A stretch of 40,421 nt of DNA from Methanobacteriota archaeon (GTDB lineage Archaea > Thermoplasmatota > Poseidoniia > Poseidoniales > Poseidoniaceae), in assembly GCA_018649825.1 (NCBI GenBank), contig JABIHC010000082.1:1-40421 (forward strand), written 5' to 3'. The position numbers and the translations under genes were made by a program. Every line of letters begins with the position of its first letter. Positions within the stretch are counted from its first letter, which is position 1. This document shows, in pieces, positions 26,830-35,554 of the stretch. The notes under the pieces were generated by a model. The model ran no database searches. It worked only from the letters and a program-made list of their open reading frames with translations, and was not told the DNA's origin.

Positions 26830-27694
26830 GCGCCGCGATGTCCCCTTGCCGCAACGAGGGTGGGACCCAATTATCATACTTGTCAAGTCACAACACCCAG
26901 GGAACTTGGGTGCCGTCTGCCGAGCAATGATGAATTACGGTTTCACAAAACTTCGCTTAATTGAGCCTCAATGTGACATTAATTGTGATGAGGCTCGCAA
27001 TAGAGCAAAGCATGCAGGAAGTATCCTTGATGAGGCTGGAATTTTCTCCACTTGGGAAGAAGCAGTGGAGGATTGTAACCTTGTCATTGGCACAAGTGGA
27101 AAGAGAGAATATGGCACCAAGACAGTTTTTCGTCATTTCCTTAACCCGTGGGACGTAGCAGAATTGGGCCCTGAAAACGGCGGTAAAATCGCCATAGTTT
27201 TTGGCGAGGAAGGCATGGGTCTCTCAACCCCCGAGTTAACAAAGTGCGATTTACTAATGACTCTTCCAACTTGGGAGGGATACCCTATTGCTAACTTAAG
27301 CCATGCAGTTAATACTACTCTATATGAGATTCACCGCCACCATATTCTGGTCCAAGGGTCATCTTTGGGAGTTGCAGATCATTTGCAATTGGATAGAACT
27401 ATTTCGCCTGAGATTCGTAAATTATTGCGTCAAGCCATTCGCGAATTTGGCTACTCATTAACTGGTGATGATAGTCGGAAAGAAACTTATTCCACATTAT
27501 TGACTAGAGTAATAATGCGCGGTATGCCACTTGATACTGAGGCTCATCGTCTCCTTGGCGCCTTTGTCGAAGCCACTACTGCAATGCAGAAGCAAGGAGG
27601 TGATGTTGATTGGCAAAAAAAGCGCCGCAAGCGCCTAAATGTCATTGAAGAATCATCAATAAATATTCCCTTTCAAATCTATGAAGAAGAGTAA
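26822..27694 (+). CDS. SPOUT-family RNA methyltransferase, TrmJ/TrmH-like
   Basis: ILVKSQHPGNLGAVCRAMMNYGF, VFGEEGMGLSTPELTKCD, LPTWEGYPIANLSHAVNTTLYEI. Start MGERRDVPL at 26822. Confidence 0.88.
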   Translation: MGERRDVPLPQRGWDPIIILVKSQHPGNLGAVCRAMMNYGFTKLRLIEPQCDINCDEARNRAKHAGSILDEAGIFSTWEEAVEDCNLVIGTSGKREYGTKTVFRHFLNPWDVAELGPENGGKIAIVFGEEGMGLSTPELTKCDLLMTLPTWEGYPIANLSHAVNTTLYEIHRHHILVQGSSLGVADHLQLDRTISPEIRKLLRQAIREFGYSLTGDDSRKETYSTLLTRVIMRGMPLDTEAHRLLGAFVEATTAMQKQGGDVDWQKKRRKRLNVIEESSINIPFQIYEEE

Positions 27695-27736
27695 GTGCAA
27701 CTATAGCACCTTATGACAACAGTAAGTTCGATTTGG

Positions 27737-28186
27737 TTAGGGTTTCCATGTCGCCCATGACTTTGGTGTCTCACGCACATGCATTGCGACTAATTTCAAA
27801 CGATTGCCGTATGATGTCTTGATATGCGGCTCAACTTGTTCAAATGCCCACTTAGCCAAATTCTCAGCAGTAGGAATAAAGGGGACTACAACAGTTCTAT
27901 GCTCATCGCCCATCGCAGCACAAGCGGAAAGACCTTTTTCATCACCAGAATATACAACGAATGCATGATCAACAACATCATGGACATATTGTGCTAGAAT
28001 CGCGCTCACATCTGAGAAATCAATTAGCATCCCTTCTTCTGACACTCCACTTTCAGTCACAATATCTCCTTCAATTTCTGCCTCAAAGCGATACCTGTGC
28101 CCATGCATATGTCGGCATTTGCTCTTATGATTTGGAACACGATGTCCAGTGTCAGTTTCCACATATCTACGAATTATTGTTGTCAT
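27737..28186 (-). CDS. queD: 6-pyruvoyl-tetrahydropterin synthase family / 6-carboxytetrahydropterin synthase
   Basis: CRHMHGHRYRFEAEIEG, MLIDFSDVSAIL, DHAFV, PTAENLAKW, VRETPKSWATW. Clustered with folE/queE/queC; ATGA overlap with queC-msrB. Confidence 0.9.
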   Translation of the reverse strand: MTTIIRRYVETDTGHRVPNHKSKCRHMHGHRYRFEAEIEGDIVTESGVSEEGMLIDFSDVSAILAQYVHDVVDHAFVVYSGDEKGLSACAAMGDEHRTVVVPFIPTAENLAKWAFEQVEPHIKTSYGNRLKLVAMHVRETPKSWATWKP

Positions 28187-29346
28187 TCTTCCTTCACCTC
28201 TTTTCTTACTAATACTAAATTCAAAGCCGCTGAATTAATGCAATATCTCTCGCCGCCAAACCTTTCCGGTCCATCATCAAATACATGCCCTAGATGTGCA
28301 TTGCATTTATCACACCTCACTTCGGTTCGTACCATTCCTGCTGAGTTGTCTATATTTCGCCTAATTTCTGCATTTTTATCTTCGGAATGGAATGAGGGCC
28401 AACCACAATTTGAATTGAATTTCATTTGTGATGTAAATAACAAATGTCCGCAACAAATACACATATAATCTCCCTCCCTTTCTTCATCCCAATATTTTCC
28501 ACTAAAGGCTGCCTCAGTTCCATTTTCTCTGGTAATACGGTATTGCTCAGTGGACAATTGCTTGAGATATTGTGCATTCTTATGCATGGCCTCTACTTCT
28601 AGAGCCGCAAGTAATACTTCTTCCCAGGAAGTTGAATATTCAACAGGGTCTGCTCTCCCGACTGCGTGGAATGCCAAAATCCTCTCAACATCTGCGCCAC
28701 TTGTTCCACTCGACCTTCCCCATTCATCTGGGTTGTATGAGGTATTTGTGTTAGCAAATACCGTGTCAAAATCAAGTCCAAGGTTTTCAATTGCATCTTC
28801 AGCATCTCTCAATATTGATTCCTTATCTCCAGAAATGTATGGTAGGTTTAGAGAGATTCTATCGCTATCCCAATTTCCTATGGCAAAAGCGTGCTCAAGA
28901 GCCGAGTAAAATTCAGGACGACAATCGGGATAAATCTCATGGTCGCCACTGTGGACTCCAAGGGCAATATCTACCTTTGTATCCTCTCGCAAGGCAACTG
29001 TCAACGCATACCCATATAGGATTGAAGAAAATATGGCATTTCGGTTTGGAACCACTGTCGCTTTCATCTGTTCTTCCTCATAATGTCCTTCGGGAATATC
29101 CTCTCCACCAGTGATGAGTGCACTATGAAATAGGCTCATGGCTGAACTTAAATCTGCAATTTTGTGTTCAACAGAGTAACCATTTGCATTAAGGTAAGCA
29201 ATATTGGCCTGCGCCCTTTGCAATTCTACAATATGCTTTTGTCCATATTCAAATGAAATACATGAGACTTTGAAGCCATCTGCAAGTAAGCGCATCAATA
29301 GGCCAGTGGAATCCATTCCACCACTCAATGCCATAACTGCTCGCAT
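28183..29346 (-). CDS. Fusion protein: 7-cyano-7-deazaguanine (preQ0) synthase QueC + peptide-methionine (R)-S-oxide reductase MsrB
   Basis: N-terminal half: ALSGGMDSTGLL PP-loop, VVPNRNAIFSS, YPDCRPEFYSALEHA. C-terminal half: LSTEQYRITRENGTEAAFSGKYWDE...CICCGHLLF...NCGWPSFH...CDKCNAHLGHVFDDGP...RYCINSAAL (complete MsrB). Confidence 0.92.
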   Translation of the reverse strand: MRAVMALSGGMDSTGLLMRLLADGFKVSCISFEYGQKHIVELQRAQANIAYLNANGYSVEHKIADLSSAMSLFHSALITGGEDIPEGHYEEEQMKATVVPNRNAIFSSILYGYALTVALREDTKVDIALGVHSGDHEIYPDCRPEFYSALEHAFAIGNWDSDRISLNLPYISGDKESILRDAEDAIENLGLDFDTVFANTNTSYNPDEWGRSSGTSGADVERILAFHAVGRADPVEYSTSWEEVLLAALEVEAMHKNAQYLKQLSTEQYRITRENGTEAAFSGKYWDEEREGDYMCICCGHLLFTSQMKFNSNCGWPSFHSEDKNAEIRRNIDNSAGMVRTEVRCDKCNAHLGHVFDDGPERFGGERYCINSAALNLVLVRKEVKEE

Positions 29347-29417
29347 TTTTCTATCCCCTCAGTCAATACTTCAACGAACAATTAGTTACACGCTAATTTT
29401 GTGAGAATTAGAAAACA

Positions 29418-30095
29418 TTAGTCAACCCCCATCCATTTATGAGTTTGCAGAGATAGGCGCCAATTTTGGTTCATCTTTACTACCTCTTCAACTTCGGCAA
29501 ATTTTCTTCCATTCCACTCTACGTCCTTTGAATGATCATAGCATGGCTGAAGGAGTAAATTATCAAATCCCCTACTTATTTCATCATACATTGAGAGGTC
29601 TTGGCCAACATAAACGCACTTCAATTCATCACCAGTTTTTTGCCTAATCAAAACATTGGGGAATTCCTGATCCTTTGGGGAAATGCAAATCCAATCTAAC
29701 AAACCCTCTGGAATGACAATTGTTCCGTTGCTTTCGCATGAAAGATAGTAACCTCTAGAATGAAATAATCGACTTAGTGGCCATAAGTCATTTAACATCG
29801 GCTCTCCTCCAGTGAAAATGATGTTATTGCAATTATATTTTGAAACCTCTTCAACGATTTGAGCGGCAGTCATTATTGTGAATTTTGTAAAGTCAGTATC
29901 GCACCATTTACAGTGCAGATTACATCCTCCAAAGCGAATAAAAACATGTGGTATCCCTGCCTTAACACCCTCGCCCTGTACACTATGAAATATCTCTACA
30001 ACTGGATATTCTGATTCAATATCCATCTGGGTATTACTTTTTCCTTCGCGAACAATATCGCTTGGAGATTTTACATCTTGGACTTCACCTGACAT
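29418..30095 (-). CDS. queE: 7-carboxy-7-deazaguanine synthase, radical SAM
   Basis: VEIFHSVQGEGVKAGIPHVFIRFGGCNLHCKWCDTDF (CX3CX2C), IIFTGGEPML. SD GGAGGG before the ATG. Confidence 0.92.
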   Translation of the reverse strand: MSGEVQDVKSPSDIVREGKSNTQMDIESEYPVVEIFHSVQGEGVKAGIPHVFIRFGGCNLHCKWCDTDFTKFTIMTAAQIVEEVSKYNCNNIIFTGGEPMLNDLWPLSRLFHSRGYYLSCESNGTIVIPEGLLDWICISPKDQEFPNVLIRQKTGDELKCVYVGQDLSMYDEISRGFDNLLLQPCYDHSKDVEWNGRKFAEVEEVVKMNQNWRLSLQTHKWMGVD

Positions 30096-30144
30096 TTTTT
30101 TCCCTCCAAAGTTCGTTTCCTTTTCGCAGATTCATCTTTGCGGC

Positions 30145-30720
30145 TTAGTTTAGACGGCCATTGCCTATCAATTGAAACAATTCCGCTCTCGCTTCTGGTT
30201 TGTCAAAGAATACTCCACGCATTGCACTGGTAGTCATTATTGCGTTTTGCTTGCGAACACCTCTGCACTGCATGCATCCATGGCTTGCTTCTATGATTAC
30301 TCCAGCTCCAAGTGGTGTCAAATGTTCAACCAAATCATCAGCGATATTCTTGGTAATACGTTCCTGATTCTGCAATCGCCTAGCGTGTAATTCAACCAAT
30401 CTCGCTAATTTGCTAATTCCGACAATCCTATCAGTTGGAATATATGCAACATGTGCTTTTCCTTTGAAGGGTTGTAAATGATGCTCACATGTTGAGTGGA
30501 ATTCAATATCGCGTAATAGGACGATTCCATCGTACCCCTCTCCATTGAATGTGGAGGACAATACAACCGCCGCCTCCTCATTGTAACCAGAGAATATTTC
30601 ATTCCATGACTTTATCACTCTCTCAGGGGTGTCAATTAATCCCTCGCGGTTATATCCATCTCCCTCCAAATAGTGAAGTAATGTGAGCACTGCTTGTTCT
30701 GCTTCTTGTTTTGTTATCAT
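30145..30720 (-). CDS. folE: GTP cyclohydrolase I (GCYH-IA, FolE type)
   Basis: STCEHHLQPFKGKAHVAYIP, GISKLARLVELHARRLQNQERIT, ASHGCMQCRGVRKQNA. ATG (MITKQEAEQ) preceded by GGAAGG. Confidence 0.92.
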   Translation of the reverse strand: MITKQEAEQAVLTLLHYLEGDGYNREGLIDTPERVIKSWNEIFSGYNEEAAVVLSSTFNGEGYDGIVLLRDIEFHSTCEHHLQPFKGKAHVAYIPTDRIVGISKLARLVELHARRLQNQERITKNIADDLVEHLTPLGAGVIIEASHGCMQCRGVRKQNAIMTTSAMRGVFFDKPEARAELFQLIGNGRLN

Positions 30721-30734
30721 TTTCCTTCCCCCAT

Positions 30735-30914
30735 TCATTCATTTGATTTGCCAATTCGTCCTTGGCGCTCATCAATAATGTCCAATTGATCAAGCATTTT
30801 ACGACATGCTGTTCTGATAGCATCTGCTACGCTAATGAATTTATGCTGGTCACCAACATGCTTCTTTAGGTCACTTAGCAATTCGGCAGGTACGTCCAAA
30901 CTGATCTTCGGCAT
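30735..30914 (-). CDS. Ribbon-helix-helix (CopG-like) putative transcriptional regulator, 59 aa
   Basis: MPKISLDVPAELLSDLKKHVGDQHKFISVADAIRTACRKMLDQL fits the RHH pattern. First gene of the preQ0 operon. Confidence 0.75.
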   Translation of the reverse strand: MPKISLDVPAELLSDLKKHVGDQHKFISVADAIRTACRKMLDQLDIIDERQGRIGKSNE

Positions 30915-30935
30915 GAATGACGGTAAGAACTCGAC

Positions 30936-30942
30936 AATATAA
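30936..30942 (-). promoter_or_regulatory. Putative TATA box (TTATATT on minus strand) for RHH-preQ0 operon, leaderless spacing
   Basis: Centre 30939 lies 25 nt upstream of the RHH ATG (30914), as expected for an archaeal leaderless transcript. Confidence 0.55.
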
Positions 30943-30971
30943 GTATTCGCTGAGTAATACTTAGCGAATAC
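30943..30971. promoter_or_regulatory. 29-bp near-perfect palindrome, putative operator
   Basis: GTATTCGCTGAGTAATACTTAGCGAATAC: 13 of 14 symmetric pairs match around 30957. Directly abuts the TATA box; extra direct copy AATACTTAGC at 30978-30987. Confidence 0.65.
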
Positions 30972-31003
30972 CAAATGAATACTTAGCCATTGTCAATGTG
31001 AGT

Positions 31004-32248
31004 TCAATTGATTGAATCAACAAGATCTTCGCGATTAAATTGCCTACTTGCATAATATGCAGCAAGAAGAGCATAAATTAAACTCGAACCAGCCCACAAA
31101 ATGATGTGCTCAAGGATAATAGTATTAGTGAGAATTTCTCGCAAGGCAAGTAGAACATTTACCACGGGAATCAAGAACCAATATCCTTCAACGCCTTCCA
31201 AATTGATAAATTGAGCAAACATGGCAGGGAATATTATTGCGATAATCATTGGTCCCAAAGTTGAACCGGCTTCTTTGGTGCTGCGACTGCGTACCGCCAA
31301 TGCTAATTGGAAGGCAACTACCATTATGGCAAATAACAGAATAGACATTAACATCAATAATATCGCCGACAAACTAAGTTCTGGAACTCCAAACATATCG
31401 CTGCTGCTGGCGATGAAACCTATTGCAAAGAAGAGTGCACATACTTGCGCTAATACTCCCGTAGCCGAAATCAAAGCAACAGCAATCCACTTGCCGAGTA
31501 ATAATTCAAAGCGGCTAATAGGTGCACAAAGAAGTGCCTCCATGGTGCCTCTTTCTCGCTCTCCAGCAGTCATGTCAATAGATGGTTGCATTGCCGAAGT
31601 AGCAGTCCAAGTAGCAACAATCAAGGGGATAAAGAGAGAAAGTGCGAAACCGGCCTGCTCGCCCTTAGTTGCGACATCTGATGCATCAATATCTCCACCC
31701 CAGCGAATAGGATTTAGAGTGGTGTTTGGATTTAAATCATTTTCCTCAAGAGTCGCTTCAATCAACAGTTCCTCCCAAGTATCCAACGCAGTGACAATTC
31801 GCTTAGTTGCCTCATTAGCCATTTCGTCGGTAGAATCGCGTAATATAGAATAATTCCAGATGGTTGAGTTGTCTTCAACTCCTCCTTCCAAGCGTAGAAT
31901 CGCATTTACTCCATGCTCCCTTACCCTCGAATAATCTGGTCCTGGGTCTGACAAATTGGCAATTCCTGCAGGCAATTCCTCCCAAGTAATATTTGCATTA
32001 TCGCCATCTAAAAATGCCATGAAATCCGTAACTTCACTTTCAGATTGAACTACAATCCGTAATTCAAACTCACTTCTCTCTTCGGCTTGAGATTCAAGAA
32101 GTAAGGGTAGAGCAATGAATAGTAAAGGGAAAATTATCAAGGGGATCAGAATAACTGCGATAAGGGTACGCCAATCTCTAACGAAATCGATTAACTCCTT
32201 GGTGGCTACGGCCCGGACTCTAAACATGCGCCCCTTGAGTTTACTCAT
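31004..32248 (-). CDS. ABC-2 type transporter permease (NatB/YhfC-like exporter permease)
   Basis: KELIDFVRDWRTLIAVILIPLIIFPLLF; SIDMTAGERERGTMEALLCAPISRFELLLGKW. Start at 32248 after GAGGTGA. Confidence 0.85.
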   Translation of the reverse strand: MSKLKGRMFRVRAVATKELIDFVRDWRTLIAVILIPLIIFPLLFIALPLLLESQAEERSEFELRIVVQSESEVTDFMAFLDGDNANITWEELPAGIANLSDPGPDYSRVREHGVNAILRLEGGVEDNSTIWNYSILRDSTDEMANEATKRIVTALDTWEELLIEATLEENDLNPNTTLNPIRWGGDIDASDVATKGEQAGFALSLFIPLIVATWTATSAMQPSIDMTAGERERGTMEALLCAPISRFELLLGKWIAVALISATGVLAQVCALFFAIGFIASSSDMFGVPELSLSAILLMLMSILLFAIMVVAFQLALAVRSRSTKEAGSTLGPMIIAIIFPAMFAQFINLEGVEGYWFLIPVVNVLLALREILTNTIILEHIILWAGSSLIYALLAAYYASRQFNREDLVDSIN

Positions 32249-33089
32249 CTTCATTCACCTCCTCAGGAGTACTCGTATTACTTGGTAGTCTACGGGGAGT
32301 AAGTAATTTACGCCAAATTTTTGCTATCTTCCCTTCTGTGTCAACATCATCGTAAATCCTCGCCGCATCGGCAGTTAGACTTACATAAGCATCTTCCAGA
32401 TTTTCCTCTTTAGTCTGTTCCATAAGTTCATCTGGTGAGCCATCCGCCCTTACTTCTCCATTATGGATGATAATTATTCGATCACAAACTTGTTGTGCTT
32501 CGGCTAAATGATGGGTGCTGTAAATGACAGTGCCTCCTGAATCTCTAACTTGTCCAACGAGCGAACGAACTTCTCTAGCACTAGTTACATCCAAACCTCC
32601 AGTAGGCTCATCCAAGAGAAGAATGTCTGGAGAATGGGCTAGAGCCCTTATTATTGCGGCTTTTTGCCTCATTCCCCGGCTAAAGCCACGAGTTGGTCGT
32701 CCGAGTTCCCCTGTAAATGACAGGGCATCGGCTAATTGAAGTGTTTTTTCCCACGCCACTTCATCCTCTATTCCATGAAGCCTAGTATGGTAACGAATGT
32801 TCTCCCATGCAGTAAGTCGGTGATATAATCCAGTGCCTTCAGGAACAACACCCAAGTGATTTCTCATCTCAACCAAAGGCTGGTCGCCATTTTCTCCATG
32901 GTATACGACGTTTCCATCAGTCGGTTGATATAGCCCACACATCAATCGTAATAGAGTAGTTTTTCCGGCACCATTTCCACCCACTAGACCAACAACATCT
33001 CCTCGATTAAGAGTTAGGTCAACACGGCTTAGTGCCTCAATGTGACCAAAGTGTTTACTCACTCCGTTAAGAGTGAGAAGAGCCGACAA
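32241..33089 (-). CDS. ABC transporter ATP-binding protein
   Basis: GGNGAGKTTLLRLMCG Walker A, SRGMRQKAAIIRALAHSPDILLLDEPTGGLD. Likely TTG start at 33089 after SD AGGTGA; the ORF track extends to 33218. Confidence 0.9.
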   Translation of the reverse strand: MSALLTLNGVSKHFGHIEALSRVDLTLNRGDVVGLVGGNGAGKTTLLRLMCGLYQPTDGNVVYHGENGDQPLVEMRNHLGVVPEGTGLYHRLTAWENIRYHTRLHGIEDEVAWEKTLQLADALSFTGELGRPTRGFSRGMRQKAAIIRALAHSPDILLLDEPTGGLDVTSAREVRSLVGQVRDSGGTVIYSTHHLAEAQQVCDRIIIIHNGEVRADGSPDELMEQTKEENLEDAYVSLTADAARIYDDVDTEGKIAKIWRKLLTPRRLPSNTSTPEEVNEDE

Positions 33090-33093
33090 GGAA

Positions 33094-33417
33094 TCACCTG
33101 CTGCGTTTTGAATCAACGGCTTCATCCAGTGTGGGATGCTTCTCTGCAATTCGGTCAGCTCGTGAAAGTTGCTCTCTAAGCATTTGTTGAATTTCCTTTT
33201 GCGAAACCCCCAAATCAATATGAGTTGCTAAATTGTCTAATGCGCCGTGAACGACCCCGGCATCAAGAAAAGCATCATTACTTATTTCGCCCTTGCTTCT
33301 AGCCTCATCTAAGGTATTACAAAGGAATTCAGCCTCTGCTCTTACGGTAACTGCATCAATATGAGCCTCGGCAATTAGACGGTTTAGGCTTGCTCGCATA
33401 AACCTCCGAACATACAT
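33094..33417 (-). CDS. Hypothetical helical protein, first gene of ABC exporter operon
   Basis: 107 aa ORF with GAAGGG SD immediately before the ATG; same strand and tight spacing with the ABC genes. Confidence 0.55.
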   Translation of the reverse strand: MYVRRFMRASLNRLIAEAHIDAVTVRAEAEFLCNTLDEARSKGEISNDAFLDAGVVHGALDNLATHIDLGVSQKEIQQMLREQLSRADRIAEKHPTLDEAVDSKRSR

Positions 33418-33425
33418 CCCTTCAA

Positions 33426-33440
33426 GAGCCTTACCGGCTC
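33426..33440. promoter_or_regulatory. Leader hairpin GAGCC-TTACC-GGCTC
   Basis: Perfect 5-bp stem and 5-nt loop just upstream of the SD of the 33094..33417 gene. Confidence 0.4.
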
Positions 33441-33473
33441 AAAAGCAACTGCTAAATCTACCTCTCATCACAT

Positions 33474-33489
33474 GAAAAGTTGACTTTTC
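33474..33489. promoter_or_regulatory. Palindrome GAAAAGT-TG-ACTTTTC, putative operator
   Basis: Perfect 7-bp inverted repeat in the only intergenic gap upstream of the ABC exporter operon. Confidence 0.4.
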
Positions 33490-33532
33490 TTCTAGAAAAA
33501 CACAGGTGCATATCTTCTTTTTGTAAAAACAT

Positions 33533-33967
33533 CTATCTTTGAGTCAACTCAACTAGTACTCCGCCGGTACTCTTTGGATGGACAAAGGCAATCATTTTCC
33601 CTCCCGCTCCGATTACCGGATTTCGATTGATCAGCATTACTTCATTGTCATGTAAATAATCCAAAATAGCTTGTAGATTTCCCACGCTAAAGCAAATTTG
33701 TTGAACACCTATCCCTTTCTTGGCAATAAATCGCCCAATTGGTGTATCCTCAGAGGTCGGTTCAAGCAACTCAATCTTCGCAGGTCTCCCACTGGCAGTG
33801 GTAAAAAAGCGCGTGGTTACACCTTGTTCGTCAACCAATTCATCTTTCACCCCCTGCTCAAGCCCAAGCAATTGCCAAAACTTACTCGCTTGTTCAAGAT
33901 TTTCACATGCAATGCCAATGTGGTCAACCATCACTGGTCCAACTTTATTTGCTATTTCTTCGTTCAT
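33533..33967 (-). CDS. mce: Methylmalonyl-CoA epimerase
   Basis: DHIGIACENLEQASKFWQLLGLEQG...KIELLEPTSEDTPIGRFIAKKGIGVQQICFSV...FVHPKSTGGVLVELTQ. Confidence 0.92.
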   Translation of the reverse strand: MNEEIANKVGPVMVDHIGIACENLEQASKFWQLLGLEQGVKDELVDEQGVTTRFFTTASGRPAKIELLEPTSEDTPIGRFIAKKGIGVQQICFSVGNLQAILDYLHDNEVMLINRNPVIGAGGKMIAFVHPKSTGGVLVELTQR

Positions 33968-33979
33968 TATTTCACCCGC

Positions 33980-35554
33980 TTAAAACCCGCTCGGTGAACG
34001 GTATGTGCCAAAGATTTCCTTCATTGAATTCATCACCTCTCCGAGAGTACAATTATTTCGCACAGCCTCAATGATTAGCGGGAAAATATTTTCCTCACCA
34101 TTTGCACAAGAACTTACTGCAGCTAAGCATTGTTTGACCTTTTCCATATCTCTTGATTTTTTCAAATTAGCCAAATTATCCAACTGCGTTTGTGCTATTG
34201 CCGGATCTAGGGTAAGGGTTTCAGGCCCTTCTCCTTCATCCATTAATCCATGGTTCACTCCGACAATTTTTCTTTCTCCTGATTCTACTTGCTGGAGGTG
34301 TTCCCATGCAGCATCGTGTATTGCCCTCTGCTGGTAGCCATCTTCCATCGCCTTCAGGGCACCGCCATAGGAATCAATTTTTTCAATTTCACTTCTTGCG
34401 AGAGAGTATATTTTTTCGGTCAAATATTCAACATGATGTGAACCTCCGAGTGGATCAACTACATCTGCCGCTCCACTTTCTTCGGCAATTACTTGCTGAG
34501 TTCTAAGGGCCACCGTTGCACTTTTTTCGGTTGGAAGTCCCAACGCTTCATCAAAGGAATTAGTGTGAAGGCTTTGAGTCCCTCCACATACTGCAGCAAG
34601 TGCTTGAATTGTAACTCTAGCAATATTGTTTAATGGTTGTTGGGCGGTTAGTGAAACCCCTGCGACTTGAGTATGGAATCTCAGCATGGAACTCTTTGGG
34701 TTAGTAGGTTTAAAGTGCTCAGTCATCAAATCATGCCACAATTTTCTCGCTGCTCTAAACTTAGCAATTTCCTCAAAAAAGTCATTATGGCAATTAAAGA
34801 AGAATGAGAGACGTGGTGCAAATGAATCAACTTCCAATCCTGCATCAACTGCATATTTAACATATTCAAGAGCATTGGATAATGTGTATGCAACTTCTTG
34901 AACAGCAGTTGAACCTGCTTCTCTAATGTGGTAGCCAGAAATTGAAATTGTATTCCATTGAGGAACGGAGTTTGTGCAGTATTGAAAAATGTCACTAATC
35001 AATCTCATACTGTGGCTAGGTGGGAACACATATGTCCCTCTTGCGATGTATTCCTTGAGAATGTCATTTTGTATTGTACCTCGGATTTCACTTTGCGACA
35101 CGCCCTGTTCCTCAGCAACCACAATATACATGGCTAGCAAGATAATTGCTGGTGAATTAATTGTCATGGATGTGGAAACTTTATCCAAGGGAATATCAGC
35201 AAATAATTGCTGCATATCTGCAACACTATCTATGGCTACCCCTACTTTCCCAATTTCACCTGCAGACAACGCATCGTCACTGTCCATTCCCAATTGAGTG
35301 GGTAGGTCAAAAGCCACAGAGAGTCCTTTTTGCCCTCTATCGAGCAATAGTTTAAAGCGCTCGTTAGTTTGTTTTGCGCTTGAAAACCCAGCGTATTGGC
35401 GCATAGTCCACAAACGCGAACGATACATTGTGGAGTGAATTCCTCTTGTATATGGTGGCTGGCCAGCATTTTCGCTACTAGCATTTTCACCATCTTCTTG
35501 AAAATCAAGTGGAATCTTAATGCCGCTCAATGTTTCCCATTTCTCTTTACGCAA
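33980..35554 (-). CDS. Methylmalonyl-CoA mutase, catalytic (large) subunit; no B12-binding domain
   Basis: YTRGIHSTMYRSRLWTMRQYAGF, LSVAFDLPTQLGMDSD, SISGYHIREAGSTAVQE, CGGTQSLHTNSFDEALGLP. Likely TTG start at 35554 after AGGGGAGGTG. Confidence 0.92.
   Translation of the reverse strand: MRKEKWETLSGIKIPLDFQEDGENASSENAGQPPYTRGIHSTMYRSRLWTMRQYAGFSSAKQTNERFKLLLDRGQKGLSVAFDLPTQLGMDSDDALSAGEIGKVGVAIDSVADMQQLFADIPLDKVSTSMTINSPAIILLAMYIVVAEEQGVSQSEIRGTIQNDILKEYIARGTYVFPPSHSMRLISDIFQYCTNSVPQWNTISISGYHIREAGSTAVQEVAYTLSNALEYVKYAVDAGLEVDSFAPRLSFFFNCHNDFFEEIAKFRAARKLWHDLMTEHFKPTNPKSSMLRFHTQVAGVSLTAQQPLNNIARVTIQALAAVCGGTQSLHTNSFDEALGLPTEKSATVALRTQQVIAEESGAADVVDPLGGSHHVEYLTEKIYSLARSEIEKIDSYGGALKAMEDGYQQRAIHDAAWEHLQQVESGERKIVGVNHGLMDEGEGPETLTLDPAIAQTQLDNLANLKKSRDMEKVKQCLAAVSSCANGEENIFPLIIEAVRNNCTLGEVMNSMKEIFGTYRSPSGF

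Follow-up and report, generated by a model that had tools for sequence, protein, structure and literature searches.

RHH dimers recognize short quasi-palindromic sites through a two-stranded sheet and commonly assemble in rows on repeated DNA. Phage P22 Arc, a 53-aa RHH protein of the MetJ-Arc superfamily, binds as cooperative dimers to neighboring half-sites, which lie about one helical turn (11 bp) apart. Archaeal viruses encode RHH proteins that cover the BRE/TATA of their own promoters and thereby repress them, and one of these, the small SSV1 protein F55, represses from 11-nt tandem repeats (ATAGATAGAGT) over the BRE/TSS of its targets, its own promoter included (PMC5569661). The plasmid protein omega, from the omega-epsilon-zeta system, places one RHH dimer on each heptad repeat and polymerizes on the repeat arrays at promoters (PMC4803016). 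A further tiny archaeal RHH protein, CdrS of the haloarchaeal CdrS/CdrL pair, is associated with ftsZ2 and cell division rather than with preQ0. The gene cluster described here is for synthesis of preQ0, a tRNA-modification precursor, and begins with the gene for a tiny putative DNA-binding protein. Bacteria often control their preQ1/queuosine genes by riboswitches. A search of the literature, covering mostly papers available without subscription, did not find a dedicated transcription factor for archaeal preQ0/archaeosine genes. The mechanism class proposed below is known from Arc, omega, and SSV1 F55; the member and its target appear to be new.

The window, which is the whole 40,421-nt stretch of DNA that was analyzed, carries the cluster on its minus strand. 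The first gene (30735–30914) encodes the 59-aa RHH protein (MPKISLDVP...), the proposed autoregulator. It is followed by folE, encoding GTP cyclohydrolase I (30145–30738; Pfam PF01227, E = 3.3e-65), which overlaps the RHH stop codon via ATGA and also comes directly after RHH in relatives. The next gene encodes a radical SAM protein (29418–30095; PF04055/PF13353) whose place matches the operon order in relatives and which, from this context, is probably QueE. The remaining genes are queC, whose product carries a fused methionine sulfoxide reductase B (SelR) domain (28183–29346; PF06508 and PF01641), and queD of the PTPS family (27737–28186; PF01242). Upstream, and outside of the system, lies an ABC-2 permease gene on the same strand (31004–32254; PF12679), which is replaced by other genes in many relatives. 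The GTP cyclohydrolase I of this archaeon is of the folE type (30145–30738, minus strand), while many archaea have a GTP cyclohydrolase of another type.

We take the 59-aa protein to be an RHH protein, based on weak sequence matches, a moderate AlphaFold model, and Foldseek hits with E > 1. The NCBIfam CdrS model (NF058555), which is the best NCBIfam family match, recognizes 24 of 24 aligned members weakly (best 5.3e-6, below the curated cut-off), and the Arc Pfam model recognizes two of 23 members (best 0.0047). A Pfam search with the window protein did not return an RHH model, nor did a PDB sequence search return an RHH match. In the AlphaFold model (pLDDT 72, moderate), residues 1–9 are extended and residues 10–22 and 29–50 are helical, with the strand itself expected only in a dimer. 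The model has the layout of the RHH superfamily, namely a short N-terminal strand then two helices, and Foldseek ranks 1–11 are all RHH proteins (ParD, VapB, CopASO, NikR, PutA52, and plasmid ParB), each with E > 1. Members of the family are 53–63 aa long, and the invariant residues in aligned sets include K3, S5, and D7 of the predicted strand, H19, S28 (where the second helix begins), and C37. The invariance of K3, S5, and D7 is as expected if the box read by the predicted strand is conserved. An identity with CdrS was considered and rejected: the window protein scores 17.7 bits against NF058555, for which the cut-off is 100, and the next gene is folE rather than ftsZ2. It was also observed that H19 and C37 are invariant in a protein (30735–30914, minus strand) that has no ligand domain.

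The original prediction placed a large palindromic operator against the TATA box of this operon. A scan of the window (14-bp arms, at most one mismatch, loop of 0–8) reproduced the quasi-palindrome GTATTCGCTGAGTAATACTTAGCGAATAC at 30943–30971, which spans 29 bp and pairs at 13 of 14 positions around a single central base, and found no second palindrome of that grade. As predicted, it directly adjoins the TATA box TTATATT (minus strand, 30942–30936), a position that appears as T-T-A-T/A columns in relatives. The stated distance of 25 nt to the RHH start codon holds when measured from the center of TTATATT to the A of the ATG (30914), and this spacing would fit leaderless promoter geometry. The predicted direct half-site was also borne out, with exact copies of AATACTTAGC at 30956–30965 and 30978–30987, an offset of 22 bp. 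Applied to first-order Markov windows, the same scan gave a match in two of 20; the palindrome by itself is only mildly unexpected, at about one window in ten with these settings. It is the comparison with relatives, rather than the palindrome, that gives strong significance.

Read on the minus strand from 30982 to 30939, the element consists of four putative operator boxes with an exact 11-bp period: box 0 (GTATTCATTTG, 30972–30982), box 1 (GTATTCGCTAA, 30961–30971), box 2 (GTATTACTCAG, 30950–30960), and box 3 (CGAATACTTAT, 30939–30949). Box 0 includes most of the upstream half-site copy and, with an 11-bp tandem repeat as the conserved unit, the 22-bp offset amounts to two periods of the array. 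Boxes 1 and 3 are the two arms of the palindrome and box 2 is its center, with the self-symmetric GTATTAC in the middle. Box 1 falls in a conserved block of RTAWTAC/GTATTC columns in relatives, while box 2 best matches the RTAWTAC consensus and its columns rank with the best conserved. Box 3 coincides with the BRE position and overlaps TTATATT, a layout common to most relatives. The 29-bp quasi-palindrome corresponds to boxes 1–3, and beyond its box content it is not conserved as a palindrome. The dyad around box 2 in relatives pairs at 8.57 of 14 positions, compared to 8.22 (sd 0.17) when columns are shuffled among sequences, and the sister genome keeps 12 of 14 pairs with no compensatory change. 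The palindrome was therefore rejected as the functional unit, whereas the operator-like element at the TATA box stands.

The relatives, Marine Group II archaea (Ca. Poseidoniales), have RTAWTAC/GAATAC boxes arrayed with an 11-bp period ahead of the same RHH-folE-queE-queC operon. A relaxed box pair at 11 bp is present in 122 of 126 distinct upstream regions and a triple in 91; nine regions have four boxes in register, and boxes with a changed letter are visible in the four regions that lack a relaxed pair. Counted over the 126 regions, which are mutually related and not independent, there are 229 relaxed pairs at 11 bp and 110 at 22 bp, compared to 2.4 and 2.3 in shuffles. Exact RTAWTAC pairs number 69 at 11 bp, 15 at 22 bp, and two at 33 bp, with approximately none in shuffles. 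Within the first 52 regions, near-match GTAWTAC boxes gave 47 pairs at 11 bp (0.09 expected) and 16 at 22 bp (0.06 expected). Side peaks are also seen at 8 and 14 bp, where the same boxes are probably matched in a second register.

The alignment gives RTAWTACYnnR as the unit, and the last box, GAATACTTATA, sits directly ahead of the AT-rich TATA position. In 44 of 52 regions, the center of box 2 is 39–46 nt upstream of the start codon, and such a nearly fixed distance from array to start would suit leaderless transcription. A comparison of the window with its sister genome shows that two of 28 core positions and seven of 16 spacer positions in the four boxes are different. In genus g3 the array has three boxes and lies about one period nearer to the start codon; genus g4 has a shorter array of GTATTC-N5-RTAWTAC or close forms, also nearer to the start, and the promoter geometry there is ambiguous. 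In many relatives, the upstream gene changes while the array stays with RHH. The comparison across related genomes that had been proposed as a check found the element kept with the same operon in all relatives examined, but no conservation of the palindrome beyond its boxes.

The array is confined to the RHH locus. The exact two-box pattern RTAWTACYNNNRTAWTACY has 43 matches in 59 genomes, all 43 of them just upstream of RHH, and the reversed control pattern has four matches in the same genomes. A scan with a profile of the array matched RHH loci only, down to E = 0.0169 per genome, with large batches filtered harder so that weak sites could escape. A convincing second array site was not found by the exact and profile scans of the 59 genomes and, since these match the RHH locus alone, the regulon of the array is likely a single operon. 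The original prediction had also suggested a search for other copies of AATACTTAGC, which did not extend the operator to new loci. Two further exact copies are present in the genome (L001 1435–1444 and L004 799–808, one apparently just past a tRNA gene); no array was seen in their flanks, and they likely occur by chance.

RHH and folE are inherited together. RHH was found in 53 of 59 relatives, with one copy each and with folE directly downstream in 53 of 53 loci. Across the order, 220 of 264 genomes and 21 of 22 genera have RHH, single-copy in nearly every genome that carries it, and 228 of 264 have folE. The closest named record with the same operon is Guaymas_26, in which RHH is 98% identical. 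Eight genomes with folE and apparently without RHH were considered as natural knockouts, and all eight turned out to be assembly breaks: in seven the contig breaks off within folE or immediately ahead of it (G046, G071, G125, G132, G193, G219, and G263), and in the eighth (G133) an N gap covers RHH. No genome that kept folE and lost RHH was found among the 264. The co-absence of RHH and folE carries little weight as evidence on joint loss, since many absences in metagenome assemblies such as these may reflect incompleteness.

Two genomes from a second order of the class (probably Marine Group III) also contain RHH with the same array. In one of these, RHH and folE are separated by a gene for a predicted membrane protein of 253 aa (L209 232–993), and the array is still located before RHH. 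Apart from this insertion, the gene after RHH is folE wherever the downstream gene was matched. Both loci are at contig ends, which leaves a slight chance of contamination; however, the differing gene order speaks against this.

Our current hypothesis, to which we assign a probability of roughly 0.8, is that the RHH protein encoded in the operon uses the array as its operator, with dimers arranged one helical turn apart over BRE/TATA and imposing negative autoregulation on preQ0 synthesis. Each 11-bp unit would contain a quasi-palindromic 7-bp box (GTAWTAC, or GAATAC beside the TATA) that is read by the two-stranded sheet of one RHH dimer. The dimers would bind cooperatively on the same DNA face, and a filled array would cover the BRE and TATA and exclude TFB/TBP. 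Filling of the array would then turn down the RHH-folE-queE-queC-queD operon, such that the level of RHH sets operon output through negative feedback. By analogy with the described systems, we infer that RHH is the binder, that binding is cooperative, and that the outcome is repression rather than activation. As for F55 and omega, short repeats of a fixed period are located in the protein's own promoter (122 of 126 regions) and overlap BRE/TATA. However, F55 is viral, has several target promoters, and uses a different box, whereas the locus described here has a cellular biosynthetic operon as its one target per genome. The heptad repeats of omega have a 7-bp period, unlike the array, and the Arc operator has two half-sites instead of three to four boxes, with no significant sequence match between the proteins.

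Whether the array serves RHH or an unlinked transcription factor, with RHH regulating something else, bears directly on this hypothesis. An unlinked factor would be compatible with the co-inheritance of array and RHH, which share one operon; indeed, co-loss of array, RHH, and folE cannot tell RHH from another binder because the array sits in the operon's own promoter. Yet a separate factor with no second array locus in 59 genomes would be odd, small quasi-palindromic boxes one turn apart are the kind of site that RHH dimers occupy, and the array remains beside RHH where another gene intrudes before folE, all of which make an unlinked factor improbable. We hold a similarly low opinion of a reading in which the array recruits or stabilizes TFB/TBP and RHH is an activator, or an activator at low and a repressor at high concentration. 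Both activation and repression are known for AvtR, an RHH protein of an archaeal virus (PMC5569661), and boxes 0–2 lie upstream of the BRE, where archaeal activators bind; occlusion nevertheless suits better the position of box 3 on the BRE and the g3 and g4 arrays nearer to the start codon. Of the two outcomes in the original prediction, blocking or recruiting TFB, blocking is the likelier, given the last box on the BRE/TATA position and the two genera with a closer array.

The 29-bp inverted repeat lies between two same-strand genes, as would an RNA hairpin that terminates the upstream ABC operon or serves as a riboswitch-like leader. This is highly improbable, as an Rfam search of 27000–34000 gave no match at E ≤ 1, the dyad is not conserved beyond the box columns and has no compensatory changes, and the array is retained in relatives with a different upstream gene in place of the ABC permease. 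Leaderless geometry would also put the array outside of the RHH mRNA. A chance AT-rich repeat could account for the palindrome alone, which is expected in about one window of ten, but the excess of about two orders of magnitude at 11 bp across relatives, together with the excess at multiples of this period, refutes chance and leaves it with almost no probability.

If RHH acts as proposed, this would be a regulator dedicated to a single operon, with an operator code that can be read and that is conserved across a highly abundant group of ocean archaea that has lacked cultured representatives, and the compact candidate protein-DNA pair could be tested in vitro without culture of the host. An additional role, in which RHH is a sensor that ties preQ0/archaeosine synthesis to the state of the cell and H19 and C37 bind metal or respond to oxidation, seems unlikely. 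Such a response would match an operon that includes GTP cyclohydrolase I, a zinc enzyme, and the QueC-MsrB fusion. As a separate observation, the SelR domain on QueC (28183–29346, minus strand) is complete, and 43 related loci likewise have matches to queC and msrB side by side.
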